A DNA stretch of 40,450 nucleotides, taken from Deltaproteobacteria bacterium (GTDB lineage Bacteria; Myxococcota_A; UBA9160; SZUA-336). Position numbers and translations under genes: made by a program. Position 1 is the stretch's first letter. Each line of letters starts with the position of its first letter. Below, in pieces: positions 36,263-40,450 of this stretch. The DNA is taken from assembly GCA_016875225.1 (NCBI GenBank), contig VGRW01000027.1, positions 1 through 40,450 on the forward strand, read 5' to 3'. The notes below the pieces were generated by a model. The model did no database searches, was not told where the DNA came from, and saw only the letters and a program-made list of their open reading frames with translations.

Positions 36263-38356
36263 TTGAGCGAGCGCAAGGTCCACACCTTCTGTCGCGTCTG
36301 CGAGCCGGCCTGCGGGCTGGTCGCGTCGGTGCAAGGCGACCGCCTGGAATCGCTGCGGCCCGACCCCGAGCACCCGGTCTCGCGCGGATTCGCCTGCAAC
36401 AAGGGCCTGGCCGGCGTCGAGATCCACCACGACCCCGACCGCCTTTCCCACCCGCAGCGCCGCCGCGCGGACGGGCGCTTGGAGCGACTTGGCTGGGACG
36501 ACGCGACGTCGCAGATCGCGTCCCGCCTGCGTGAGATCGTGGCTGCGCACGGGCCGGACGCCGTGGCTTCCTACATCGGCAATCCCAGCGCCTTCAACGC
36601 GCTGATCGCGCCGGCCGCGGGCGCGTTCTTCGGCCAGCTCGGCGCGCGGCGCTCCTTCAGCTCGGGTACACAGGATTGCGCCAACAAGTTCGCGGGCAGC
36701 GAGGCCGTCTTCGGCTCGAGCACGATCCACCCGATTCCGGACCTCGAGAACGCCGATCTGGTGCTGATCTTCGGCGCCAACCCGCGCGTCTCGCACGGCA
36801 GCTTCATCTCGATCGCCGATCCCGCGCGCGTGCTGAAGGACGCGCGCAAGCGCGGCGCTCGGCTGCGCTTCGTGAACCCGCGCGAGATCGAGTCCGCGGA
36901 GCCGGGCGAGACGATCCTGATCCGCCCCGACACGGACGTGTACCTGCTGGCGGCGCTTCTTCACGAGCTCGACCTTCTCGGCGGCTTCGACGAGGCCGCG
37001 CTCGCGGCGCACGGCGCGCACGTCGCGGAGCTAGGGGCGTTCGTCTCGCGCTACCCGGCCGAGCGCGCCGCGACCGTGACCGGCATTCCGGCCGAGACCA
37101 TCCGCGGGCTCGCGAGCGAGATCGCGCAGGCGAAGAGCTGCGCGGTGCACCTCTCGACGGGCGTGAACATGGGCCGGCAGGGCACGCTCGCCTACGCGCT
37201 GCTCCACGTGCTCTCGTTCGCGAGCGGAAATCTCGACCGGCGCGGCGGGAACATCCTCTCGGTCGGCTTCTACGAGGCGGCGAAGGCGGGACGGCGCGAG
37301 TTCTCGAGCTCCTACGCCGACACCGAATTCGGTCGGCTGCGAAAGGGGGCGCTGCCCGGCACGCTGCTCTCGCAATCGATCCTCGATTCGGCCAACCCGG
37401 TGCGCGCGCTCTTCGTCGTGGCGGGAAATCCGCTGCTCTCGATCGCGGGCGAGGCGCGACTGCGCGAGGCGTTCGGGGCGCTCGAGCTTCTGGTCTGCAT
37501 CGACCTCTACCCCAACGCGACCTCGGAGTACGCCGACTTCCTGCTCCCGGCGACCGACGCCTTCGAGCGCGCGGACGTGAACCTGACCGGGCTCGGCCTG
37601 CAGCACGAGCCGTGGGTGCAGTGGACCGACGCGGTGGTGCCCGCGCGGGCGGAGCGCCGCGAGGAGTGGTGGATCTTCGCGCGGCTCTGCCAGGAGCTCG
37701 GCCTGAAGAGCGCGCTCGACGCGGGCCCCGAGCCGGATCTCTGGGGTCGGATCGACCACATGCTGAAATCGCGCGGCCACTCGCTCGAGGAGCTCCGCGA
37801 AAGCCCGCACGGGATCGTCTTCTCGCGGCCTTCTCCCGGGAGCTTCTTCGAGAGGCAGATCCAGACCCCGGACCGGCGGGTCGACTGCTGCCCGCCCGGC
37901 TTCGCCGAAGCGATCGAGCGCGCGGAGCGGATCTTCCGCGAGCTCGAGAGGGAAGGGCGCTCGCGCCTGAAGCTGATCACGCGGCGCGACCCGTACATGC
38001 ACAACAGCTGGTACGCGAACCTCCCGGCCATGAAGCGCGGGCGCCGCGATCGCAACCGCCTCCACGTCCACCCGGCCGACGCGGCCGAGCGCGGGCTCGC
38101 CGACGGCGCGAAGGCGCGGATCTGGAACGAGAACGGCGCGCTCGAGCTCGAGATCGAGCACGACGCGACGCTGATGCGCGGCGTGGTCGCGCTCGCTCAC
38201 GGCTGGGGCCACCGCGGCGCGGCGGGGATGCGCGTGGCCGCGCGCGCGCCGGGCGTGAACGCCAACGCGCTGCTGCCGATCGGGCCGGGCTCGTTCGAGC
38301 CGCTCTCGAGCCAGGCCTTCATGACCGGAATCCCGGTGGAGCTGGCGCCTCTCTAG
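36263..38356 (+). CDS. Molybdopterin-dependent oxidoreductase (DMSO reductase/formate dehydrogenase superfamily)
   Basis: This is a 697-residue catalytic subunit. The N-terminal [4Fe-4S] motif is Cys10-x2-Cys13-x3-Cys17-x27-Cys45 (HTFCRVCEPACGLVASV to RGFACNKG). Molybdopterin-binding blocks follow, including ADLVLIFGANPRVSHG, RPDTDVYLLAALLHEL, LFVVAGNPLLSIAGE and ATSEYADFLLPATDAFERAD. The C-terminal dinucleotide-binding domain contains LHVHPADAAERGLADGAKARIWNENG. There is no twin-arginine signal, so it is cytoplasmic. No partner electron-transfer subunit or cofactor gene is adjacent. Relatives are often annotated 'formate dehydrogenase' or 'dehydrogenase' without evidence; the true substrate is unknown. 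It may be co-transcribed with apaG. Confidence 0.9.
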   Translation: MSERKVHTFCRVCEPACGLVASVQGDRLESLRPDPEHPVSRGFACNKGLAGVEIHHDPDRLSHPQRRRADGRLERLGWDDATSQIASRLREIVAAHGPDAVASYIGNPSAFNALIAPAAGAFFGQLGARRSFSSGTQDCANKFAGSEAVFGSSTIHPIPDLENADLVLIFGANPRVSHGSFISIADPARVLKDARKRGARLRFVNPREIESAEPGETILIRPDTDVYLLAALLHELDLLGGFDEAALAAHGAHVAELGAFVSRYPAERAATVTGIPAETIRGLASEIAQAKSCAVHLSTGVNMGRQGTLAYALLHVLSFASGNLDRRGGNILSVGFYEAAKAGRREFSSSYADTEFGRLRKGALPGTLLSQSILDSANPVRALFVVAGNPLLSIAGEARLREAFGALELLVCIDLYPNATSEYADFLLPATDAFERADVNLTGLGLQHEPWVQWTDAVVPARAERREEWWIFARLCQELGLKSALDAGPEPDLWGRIDHMLKSRGHSLEELRESPHGIVFSRPSPGSFFERQIQTPDRRVDCCPPGFAEAIERAERIFRELEREGRSRLKLITRRDPYMHNSWYANLPAMKRGRRDRNRLHVHPADAAERGLADGAKARIWNENGALELEIEHDATLMRGVVALAHGWGHRGAAGMRVAARAPGVNANALLPIGPGSFEPLSSQAFMTGIPVELAPL

Positions 38357-38390: not shown

Positions 38391-38419
38391 TTGCATCTAT
38401 AAATGAACACGTTCATAAT
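38391..38419 (+). promoter_or_regulatory. Sigma-70-type promoter of the tetR-coq4-like operon
   Basis: TTGCAT (38391-38396) and CATAAT (38414-38419) are separated by 17 bases and lie in the only clearly AT-rich patch of the neighbourhood. They match the TTGACA/TATAAT consensus at four and five positions respectively. The -10 box sits inside the palindromic operator, so a bound repressor would block polymerase. Upstream, 38373-38390 holds a GC-rich hairpin (CCGGC/GCCGG arms) without a T-run, which might weakly terminate the oxidoreductase transcript. Confidence 0.65.
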
Positions 38420-38432
38420 TGATCGTGTTCAT
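38403..38432 (+). promoter_or_regulatory. Inverted-repeat operator of the TetR regulator
   Basis: ATGAACACG (38403-38411) and its exact reverse complement CGTGTTCAT (38424-38432) frame a 12-base spacer. A third half-site GTTCAT (38411-38416) makes a tight ATGAAC-AC-GTTCAT palindrome within the left part. The sites cover the -10 box and probable start of transcription just ahead of the TetR gene, the usual geometry for TetR autorepression. Binding is inferred. Confidence 0.75.
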
Positions 38433-38437
38433 GGAGG
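38433..38437 (+). promoter_or_regulatory. Ribosome binding site that sets the TetR start at 38443
   Basis: GGAGG ends five bases before the ATG at 38443. The two earlier in-frame candidates (TTG 38419, ATG 38431) lie in or upstream of the operator and have no such site. Confidence 0.78.
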
Positions 38438-38442
38438 TGCAG

Positions 38443-39084
38443 ATGCCCGAGCCGGCGGTCGGACTCCGAGAGCGGAACAAGCGCGAGAAGCTGGCGCGGA
38501 TCACCGCGTCCGCGCGGGAGCTGTTCCGCACCAAGGGCTTCGAGGAGGCGACCGCTCGCGAGATCTGCGAGCGGGCCGAGATCGGCACCGGCACGCTCTT
38601 CCTCTACGTGCGCGACAAGCGCGAGCTGCTCTTCCTCTGCTTCGAGGCCGACGCGCGGCGGCTCTTCGCCGAGGGCCGGGCCGAGGCGCTCCGGACCGAC
38701 GGCCTGGTCGCGCAGCTGCTCTGCCTGTTCCGCCGCTTCATCGACTACTACGCGGCCGACCCCGCGCTCTCGAAGGCGATCGTGCGCGAGCTGTTCTTCC
38801 GCCCGCACGACCCCGAGGGCATCGGCCGGCTCACGCGCGAGTACTCCGAGCACGTGGCCGACCTCGTCACCGCCGCGCAGGCCCGGAGGGAGATCCGCGC
38901 CGACGTGTCGGCCAAGCTCGCCGCGATGGCGTTCTACGCGCACTACGCGTTCTGGATTCTCGGCTGGCTCGGCACGGGGATGCTCTCCGCCGAGAGCGTG
39001 GAGCCGGGGCTGCGGCAGGCGCTCGAGCTCCAGCTCGACGGGCTCGCGGCCCGCCGCGCGGATCGAAACACGAAGAGGAGATAG
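38443..39084 (+). CDS. TetR/AcrR-family transcriptional regulator
   Basis: This is a 213-residue regulator. The N-terminal helix-turn-helix domain reads REKLARITASARELFRTKGFEEATAREICERAEIGTGTLFLYVRDKRELL, with the typical 'G-GTLF-YV-DK-EL' recognition helix. Residues 70-205 form an all-helical ligand-binding domain of no assigned subfamily. The start at 38443 is set by the GGAGG before it. The palindromic ATGAAC/GTTCAT elements upstream suggest autoregulation. The Coq4-motif gene starts four bases after its stop, with its own AGGAG, so the regulator probably controls that gene and perhaps the neighbouring oxidoreductase. The inducer is unknown; many such TetR proteins sense acyl-CoAs or aromatic compounds. 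Confidence 0.92.
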   Translation: MPEPAVGLRERNKREKLARITASARELFRTKGFEEATAREICERAEIGTGTLFLYVRDKRELLFLCFEADARRLFAEGRAEALRTDGLVAQLLCLFRRFIDYYAADPALSKAIVRELFFRPHDPEGIGRLTREYSEHVADLVTAAQARREIRADVSAKLAAMAFYAHYAFWILGWLGTGMLSAESVEPGLRQALELQLDGLAARRADRNTKRR

Positions 39085-39087
39085 GCG

Positions 39088-39678
39088 ATGGCGAAGATGG
39101 ACCTGGCGATCAGCGTGGGCGAGGCGCGCGCGCGCTACTTCGAGGAGTCGGGCTTTCCGCCGGACGGCGGCATGTCGCAGAGCTTCGTGGCGTTCTGGAA
39201 GCTCGGCCCGATCCCGATCGGGTTTCCCAACTCGAACGCGCGACGGCGCGCGCTCCAGATGCACGACCTGCACCACGTGGCGACGGGCTACCCGCCCAGC
39301 TGGACCGGCGAGGTCGAGATCAGCGCCTGGGAGCTCGCGACCGGCTGCGGCGGGTACGCATTCGCGTGGACGATCACGCTGCAGGGGCTGGCCGTCGGCC
39401 TGTTCGTGAGCCCGATCAAGACCTGGCGCGCGTGGGTGCGCGGGCGCAACACGCGCAGCCTCTACGCGGAGCAGTTCTCGGAGTCGCTGCTGCGCAAGAG
39501 CGTGGGCGAGCTTCGCCGCCACCTCGGGCTCGACCGGGGTGTGCCGCGCGCGACGCTCGGCGACGCGCTCTCGTTCGGGTTCTGGAGCTCGGTCGCGCTT
39601 GCGCAGACGGCGGCGATGTTCGCGCTGCTGGCGCTGCCCGTCGCCGGGCTCGCCATGCTGGTCCGAGCGCTGGTCTAG
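39088..39678 (+). CDS. Coq4-motif membrane protein
   Basis: This is a 196-residue protein. It contains His59-Asp60-x2-His63-x11-Glu75 (MHDLHHVATGYPPSWTGEVE), exactly the HDxxHx11E zinc motif of Coq4, which acts in ubiquinone biosynthesis. The spacing and the flanking helix-like segments support a distant Coq4 relation. Unlike soluble Coq4, the protein has two hydrophobic segments: FAWTITLQGLAVGLFVSPI at about 93-111, and a stronger C-terminal one (VALAQTAAMFALLALPVAGLAMLV) at about 169-192. It is probably membrane-bound. It follows the TetR gene by three bases, with AGGAG upstream. No other quinone-biosynthesis gene is present, so its substrate could be a different prenylated or lipid compound. 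The motif is clear; the function is inference. Confidence 0.78.
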   Translation: MAKMDLAISVGEARARYFEESGFPPDGGMSQSFVAFWKLGPIPIGFPNSNARRRALQMHDLHHVATGYPPSWTGEVEISAWELATGCGGYAFAWTITLQGLAVGLFVSPIKTWRAWVRGRNTRSLYAEQFSESLLRKSVGELRRHLGLDRGVPRATLGDALSFGFWSSVALAQTAAMFALLALPVAGLAMLVRALV

Positions 39679-39742: not shown

Positions 39743-40450
39743 ATGAGCCTCCGGGGAACGCGCCGCCAATTCCTGGGCGCGCTCACGCTCTGCGTGTGCG
39801 CGCTCGCCGCCGCGATTGCGAGCGCCGACGCCTCGATCCACGCCGTGCGCTCGGCGACGCCGCCGGTGATCGACGGCCGGCTCGACGACGAGATCTGGAA
39901 GGTCGCGGGCCGAAGCGACGCGTTTCGCGAGGTCGATCCGGTCGAGGGCGGCGAGCCCAGGCAGCGCACCGAGGTCCGGGTCGCCTACGACGACGAGGCG
40001 CTCTACGTCGCGGTGCGCTGCGACGACAGCGATCCCCGCGGCATCATCGCCAAGACCCTGCTCCCCGACGTCGACATGCGCTCCGACGACCGCGTGAACT
40101 TCGTCTTCGACACGTTCCACGACTCGCGAAACGGCTACTTCTTCCAGATCAACCCCGTCGGCGCGCGCTCCGACGCGCTGATCGAGAACAACGCGATCTT
40201 CCGCCGCGAGTGGGACACGATCTGGTACGGAAAGACCAGCGTCGACGCGGAAGGCTGGAGCGTGGAGCTGGCGATCCCCTTCAAGAGCGTGACGCTGCGC
40301 CCCGGCGATCCGGTCTGGGGCTTCGAGGTCGAGCGCATCGTGCGCCGCGACAGCCAGAAGATCCGCTGGGCGAACCACTCGCAGAACCACGTGATCGTCA
40401 ACATCGCTGGCATCGGCAGGATCGAGGGCCTGGAGGGAGTCTCGGGCCCC
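39743..40450 (+). CDS. Tat-exported CBM9/DUF5916-type protein, N-terminal part (cut by right edge)
   Basis: The frame is open from the ATG at 39743 to the window end (236 codons). The N-terminus GTRRQFLGALTLCVCALAAA has a twin-arginine motif (T-R-R-Q-F-L) and a hydrophobic core ending near IASADA, a likely Tat signal. From about residue 43, TPPVIDGRLDDEIWKVAG begins a carbohydrate-binding family 9-type beta domain. It continues with VRVAYDDEALYVAVRCDDSDP, DDRVNFVFDTFHDSRNGYFFQINPVG and GWSVELAIPFKSV. In DUF5916 proteins this domain precedes a long outer-membrane-type beta-barrel region, here outside the window. Ligand and role are unknown. The Tat signal fits the tatA gene in the same window. 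Confidence 0.85.
   Translation, partial: MSLRGTRRQFLGALTLCVCALAAAIASADASIHAVRSATPPVIDGRLDDEIWKVAGRSDAFREVDPVEGGEPRQRTEVRVAYDDEALYVAVRCDDSDPRGIIAKTLLPDVDMRSDDRVNFVFDTFHDSRNGYFFQINPVGARSDALIENNAIFRREWDTIWYGKTSVDAEGWSVELAIPFKSVTLRPGDPVWGFEVERIVRRDSQKIRWANHSQNHVIVNIAGIGRIEGLEGVSGP

Follow-up and report, generated by a model that had tools for sequence, protein, structure and literature searches.

The DNA analysed here, 40,450 nucleotides from a Deltaproteobacteria bacterium (contig VGRW01000027.1, positions 1 to 40,450; hereafter the window), carries a gene for a TetR-family repressor followed directly by a gene for a Coq4-superfamily protein, and the two make up a predicted on/off circuit that is conserved and recurs in distant relatives. 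The locus is very probably an autoregulated TetR switch, in which the repressor would occupy two operators (O1 and O2) and a lipophilic effector would release it, with induction of the Coq4-like protein and of a methyltransferase. TetR-type regulation at the locus is well supported by sequence comparison, through which the predicted operators, their autoregulatory position, the conserved pairing of the two genes and a putative specificity residue were each established. A TetR switch had been proposed in an earlier reading made from the letters alone, without database searches (the sequence-only reading), and the operators, the pairing and the co-variation of TetR residue 38 support that proposal. 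Feature coordinates are collected in Table 1.

Table 1. Features of the TetR/Coq4-like locus, in window coordinates
Feature	Position	Strand	Basis or remarks
Sigma-70-like promoter, TTGCAT-17 bp-CATAAT	38391..38419	+	Sequence and position of the elements in relatives
-35-like element, TTGCAT	38391-38396	+	Sequence
-10-like element, CATAAT	38414-38419	+	Sequence; 17-bp spacer between the two elements
Predicted operator O1, ATGAACACGTTCAT	38403..38416	.	Within the promoter spacer and the first -10 bases
Predicted operator O2, TTGATCGTGTTCAT	38419..38432	.	Over the expected transcription start
Likely ribosome-binding site of the TetR gene, GGAGGTG	38433..38439	+	Inferred from sequence
TetR-family repressor, 213 aa	38443..39084	+	PF00440 3.9e-10
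Coq4-superfamily protein, 196 aa	39088..39678	+	PF05019, HDxxH-X11-E motif, hydrophobic C-terminal helix

The promoter and both predicted operators lie in an AT-rich island (13 G or C bases among the 42 from 38391 to 38432) within DNA of about 70% GC, the surrounding 200-base windows having GC fractions of about 0.64-0.76. With 8 of 12 consensus matches the promoter is weak by consensus and was not called by a generic promoter scan set at 9 or more matches of 12; it is supported by its conserved position, as most close relatives have TTG and -10-like elements at the corresponding position with respect to the operators (L092 and L096 match poorly). O1 and O2 are 16 bp apart, centre to centre. 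The sequence-only reading had described a promoter overlaid by palindromic repeats plus a third half-site, in an AT-rich island. The overlay was confirmed from the sequence, with its placement kept in most relatives, and the island was borne out; the palindromes stand as predicted operators, but the spare half-site does not, GTTCAT (38427-38432) being the right arm of the O2 14-mer, which leaves two full tandem operators. A first-order model of the window's dinucleotide composition gives an expected count of 1.4e-4 per window for the exact operator 14-mer, and of 7.6e-8 per window, or 7e-6 per 3.87-Mb genome, for the tandem core (TGAWCN2GWTCA-N4-TGAWCN2GWTCA). A search of the window's own genome found the exact 14-mer once.

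The TetR gene ends at 39084 and the ATG of the Coq4-like gene stands at 39088, 3 nt being left between them, and the two genes are therefore likely to be co-transcribed. No conserved third operon gene was seen by eye in the loci of relatives. The next gene starts 64 bases past the Coq4-like gene (39743-40450) and has an IDGRLDDEIW-type N-terminal region; a terminator scan found none between the two, so read-through into this gene is possible. On the other side, a molybdopterin oxidoreductase gene (PF00384, formate-dehydrogenase-like; 36263-38356) ends 34 bases before the -35 element. It was considered as a part of the system and rejected, since such a gene was near the Coq4-like gene in 5 of the 80 loci described below (best 80 of 299), which is too few.

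Named genomes were scanned with an alignment of the Coq4-like protein, and the best 80 of 299 relatives were taken as loci; by title these are mostly Myxococcota (Sorangium, Archangium, Minicystis, Labilithrix), with some Planctomycetota, Acidobacteriota and others. Clustering of neighbouring genes gave TetR as the one frequent neighbour (29 of these best 80 loci, the next clusters holding 6 and 5), and tblastn added TetR genes at L127, L135 and L147, for 32 of the 80; the TetR gene is either divergent from the Coq4-like gene or upstream of it in tandem. Sorangium, Archangium and Minicystis are among the cultivable relatives that carry both genes (loci L125, L129 and L173). The other 48 of the best 80 loci are without an adjacent TetR gene, and the Coq4-like protein thus does not need the regulator. 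A general site, TGANYNNRNTCA, was written after the intergenic DNA of the same 29 clustered loci had been viewed. It is found at 29 of 29 of them (66 sites in 5.7 kb) and at 2 of the 51 others (L135 and L147; at L127 the strict tandem is present), the background being 43 sites in 571 kb; sites of this type thus mark all 32 TetR-linked loci and 0 of the 48 TetR-free loci among the best 80 of 299. Operator repeats in linked loci are often spaced at 16 or 13 bp.

Because the pattern had been derived from the first loci, it was run on a held-out set. Briefly, a second Coq4-like query was run against 377 genomes of the phylum, and 56 loci from outside the first 97 genomes were read, of which 9 with at least 95% identity to the first set were set aside and 47 retained. 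The site was present at 9 of 11 TetR-linked loci and 0 of 36 unlinked loci, one of the latter (L284) being without upstream sequence. L219 and L264, the linked loci in which no site was called, had been searched over stretches of 26 and 38 bp, and a wider look placed sites at the gene junction. The held-out set is small (47 loci) and is the only clean test of the pattern.

Relatives of the TetR protein were searched for in 97 genomes (the window's own and relatives), with 16 matches in 14 genomes at E ≤ 1e-30. The tandem operator is present at two or fewer mismatches upstream of 11 of the 14 closest TetR relatives, so that the half-sites, whose loss in relatives had been named beforehand as grounds for giving up the switch, are conserved. 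Upstream of the remaining three (L101, L102 and L100) the best tandems have 4, 7 and 8 mismatches; L101 and L102 each have one perfect 12-mer there, and at L100 a perfect tandem lies between the TetR gene and a neighbouring methyltransferase gene. The Coq4-like gene adjoins 7 of the 14. Two paralogous TetR genes, L103 (G000:C46) and L104 (G001:C201), each lie beside a flavin-hydroxylase-like frame (HpaB-like, by eye), and TGAGCATGGTCA-N4-TGACCGTGGTCA stands upstream of the latter. A further TetR relative, L204 (G009:C458), lies directly before a distant relative of the methyltransferase, with TGAACTCGATCA and TGAACGTGTTCA, 17 bp apart, upstream of it.

Further sites were sought in the window's own genome. 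At three or fewer mismatches one additional tandem was found, C68:1281-1308 (2 mismatches), in low-GC DNA (0.53); a SAM-dependent methyltransferase gene has its ATG 47 bases further on. This gene is L079:1356-2381 (G000:C68), and a short MerR-like frame lies upstream of it on the other strand (L079:998-1213). A search with the single 14-mer gave 1 exact and 14 one-mismatch places among the matches listed; the latter were rejected as a regulon, nearly all being inside high-GC3 reading frames by an ORF and GC3 check, and only C68:1296, which belongs to the C68 tandem, is promoter-like. At 3 mismatches the tandem search gives many hits, with a match in 73 of 90 genomes, and most of these hits are likely chance, so claims were confined to two or fewer; a reversed-pattern control of the tandem search was composition-biased and was left unused. 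Methyltransferase relatives are present in 12 of the 97 genomes. The tandem precedes the methyltransferase gene in G049 (2 mismatches) and G059 (0 mismatches) and a TetR-methyltransferase pair in G087, and is absent at the methyltransferase copies of G032, G076, G086 and G023; a TetR gene adjoins the methyltransferase gene in G059, G087, G078 and G009. The sequence-only reading had the Coq4-like gene as the only gene clearly co-transcribed with the regulator: co-transcription remains likely, given the 3-nt gap, but, given the tandem before the methyltransferase gene, the regulon probably extends beyond one operon.

How far it extends bears on the alternative that survives best, namely that the repressor governs a broader lipid or xenobiotic stress regulon in which the Coq4-like protein is one detoxification enzyme among several. 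In relatives the same regulator and operator do occur beside other genes of this kind, the TetR genes of G087 and G078 being divergent from a P450 gene and that of G022 being followed by an MMPL protein (transporter), and the TetR repressors Bm3R1/FatR likewise control a fatty-acid P450 according to PMC3814354. Against this, neither of the two tandem sites found in the window's own genome at three or fewer mismatches lies before a P450 gene, and no second frequent partner emerged among the best 80 of 299 loci. A regulon of this breadth is a serious possibility, yet one that we consider doubtful on balance.

Assignment of the target to the Coq4 superfamily rests on its metal motif and modelled fold. 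The match to PF05019 (23.8 bits, cut-off 22.9) spans profile positions 120-218 of 221, the C-terminal half only. The protein has H59, D60, H63 and E75 in the spacing HDxxH-X11-E, which fits HDxxH-X(10-13)-E, the Coq4 metal motif as defined in PMC9774615, and in all 25 aligned relatives the residues H59, D60, H62, H63, G74, E75, A80, W81 and E82 are unchanged. The structure model (pLDDT 95.4) matches 6e12 with Z 9.1 over 128 residues and 3msq with Z 8.6 over 123, rows of Z 2.4 and below having been treated as unrelated, and so appears to have the Coq4 fold; Foldseek gave weaker matches (best E 0.013). These two structures, of the Nostoc Coq4 homologues Alr8543 (PDB 6E12) and Npun02000094 (PDB 3MSQ), share the HDxxH-X(10-13)-E motif and the C-terminal Coq4 fold (PMC9774615). 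The window protein is 20-24% identical to them over about 125 residues and differs in having no counterpart to the N-terminal portion of the Coq4 profile and in carrying a hydrophobic C-terminal helix (157-195; 19-residue means up to 2.24), which is consistent with a membrane anchor. Matches to the Coq4-like protein were found in 54 of the 97 genomes at E ≤ 0.001, many of which are likely to be weak matches to longer Coq4 paralogues.

The HDxxH-X11-E spacing is also that of eukaryotic COQ4, which acts in ubiquinone synthesis (PMC11495197). In the window's own genome (97.8% complete), profile searches found no COQ7 (PF03232) and no UbiG over cut-off, the two ubiquinone enzymes covered as markers of a ubiquinone-making host, and MenB is over cut-off at 446 bits; a ubiquinone role for the Coq4-like protein is therefore unlikely. 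Two adjacent MqnC-like matches lie at G000:C23:34441-36637 (350.9 bits against a cut-off of 428, and 59.5 bits). The MqnC-type match was rejected as evidence of the futalosine pathway because it is below cut-off and PF02621 is absent from the genome by profile search; MenB is the better marker. Of the ligand-controlled Coq4-like protein put forward in the sequence-only reading, the Coq4 motif is retained and a Coq4 fold is added, but to call the target Coq4 would say too much, in view of the half-profile match barely above its cut-off and of a host with MenB and without COQ7 or UbiG over cut-off.

A true quinone-pathway enzyme under metabolite feedback, acting at the ubiquinone C1 step or in a menaquinone analogue of it, would account for the metal motif and the fold, and human COQ4 is described as an oxidative decarboxylase in PMC11495197. 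Such a role is improbable when set against the COQ7, UbiG and MenB results and the limited Pfam match, and also against the 43 of 97 relatives without a Coq4-like match and the lack of a recurrent quinone-gene neighbour, by eye, among the clusters listed for the best 80 of 299 loci. The protein would instead act on acyl compounds or lipophilic rings, apart from the synthesis of ubiquinone.

The repressor itself has a TetR_N helix-turn-helix (PF00440, 39.8 bits, cut-off 24) and, by comparison, predicted palindromic operators at its own promoter, as is characteristic of the TetR family. The nearest solved proteins by profile are 3whb (fatty acid metabolism regulator), which we take to be the Bacillus FadR, 1vi0, 3ang, presumably the T. 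thermophilus FadR, and KstR, and these suggest acyl-CoA-like ligands. The NCBIfam FadR equivalog gave 38.3 bits against a cut-off of 200, no NCBIfam equivalog reached its cut-off, and the acyl-CoA-type TetR models were far below cut-off for this protein. Ligand control of the switch would follow from membership in the TetR family, and an acyl-CoA or fatty or aromatic acid as the class of effector is suggested by analogy with the nearest solved relatives.

In the proposed mechanism, each of the two palindromes, which share the core TGAWC-N2-GWTCA and have their centres 16 bp apart, would be bound by a TetR dimer. Because O1 lies in the spacer and -10 element and O2 over the expected start, the bound repressor would close the promoter that serves tetR and, just behind it, the Coq4-like gene. 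Release of the TetR protein would come from a small lipophilic molecule, for which an acyl-CoA or a fatty or aromatic acid is the likeliest candidate, and the metal-binding, membrane-associated Coq4-superfamily protein would then be induced, and with it the methyltransferase that has the same tandem operator elsewhere in the genome. Tandem binding is presumed for the window protein; for an archaeal FadR, both a single dimer and a dimer of dimers are described on operator DNA (PMC6449355). That the TetR protein might instead activate transcription is brought up by the existence of TetR activators, FasR and DhaS being among the NCBIfam model names, and is very unlikely given operators that cover the -10-like element and the expected start in most relatives examined. 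Repression thus appears to be the mode of action.

Protein and operator were further compared across 40 TetR sequences, split by operator class into TGAW and the rest, at 60 positions. The sequences of the window's TetR protein, L140 and L161 (duplicates) and L142 (incomplete) were left out, and L100 and L103 were unlabelled. Threonine at residue 38 is found in 0 of 14 predicted TGAW binders and in 25 of 26 others, which makes this residue the best discriminator of the 60 positions (Fisher 6e-10, with no correction for kinship among the sequences or for how many positions were compared). On the tree there are 3 changes per label, at least 2 of them forced by supported branches, and L175 and L104 cross its main divide; the co-variation is partly phylogenetic, as the W group is mostly one clade. 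Residue 38, an alanine in the window's TetR protein, which we assume to correspond to Thr27, the DNA-contacting helix 2 residue in the TetR-tetO structure, co-varies with the fourth base of the operator and so ties the TetR protein to the operator DNA. Although the core is GATC/GTTC-like and common in these genomes at three or fewer mismatches, palindromes arising by chance or serving an unrelated regulator are hardly credible beside the expected tandem count of 7e-6 per genome, the contrast between linked and unlinked loci in both the first and the held-out sets, and this co-variation.

As a circuit, the locus is an ordinary TetR autorepressor with tandem operators. A close parallel is FatR/Bm3R1-cyp102 of Bacillus, where, as described in PMC3814354, an autoregulated TetR gene is co-transcribed with an oxidative enzyme gene, the operator is palindromic and near the start site, and the inducer is lipophilic, the repressor being displaced by fatty acids. 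That operator is a single 18-bp palindrome between the start site and the Shine-Dalgarno sequence and its target is a P450 (PMC3814354), whereas in the window the promoter is overlaid by two operators in tandem and the target is Coq4-like. The TetR-type FadR proteins of Bacillus and Thermus thermophilus are nearest to the window TetR by profile (3whb, 1vi0, 3ang); the T. thermophilus FadR consensus given in PMC5597230, TTRNACYNRGTNYAA, differs from the window operator in its centre and flanks.

The target is a different matter. No paper on the TetR-Coq4-like pair was found in the open-access literature by title and abstract, and a TetR-switch target recurring across Myxococcota seems not to have been described before. 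We suggest tentatively, and with more doubt than assurance, that Myxococcota and some other phyla have a non-ubiquinone Coq4-superfamily enzyme, which in many Myxococcota would be induced when a lipophilic compound, acyl-CoA-like or aromatic, acts on a dedicated TetR protein. The operator specificity of this TetR protein would have drifted with one recognition residue. Compounds of that kind may be what the enzyme modifies, perhaps through oxidative decarboxylation and alongside a methyltransferase induced at the same time. In the open-access literature searched by title and abstract, no role is assigned to Coq4-like proteins that stand apart from ubiquinone synthesis. A dedicated, conserved repressor whose operator is defined provides a way into their function, since the ligand that relieves repression is probably the substrate of the Coq4-like protein or a compound similar to it. 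The operator variants, together with residue 38, offer a ready natural test of TetR specificity.
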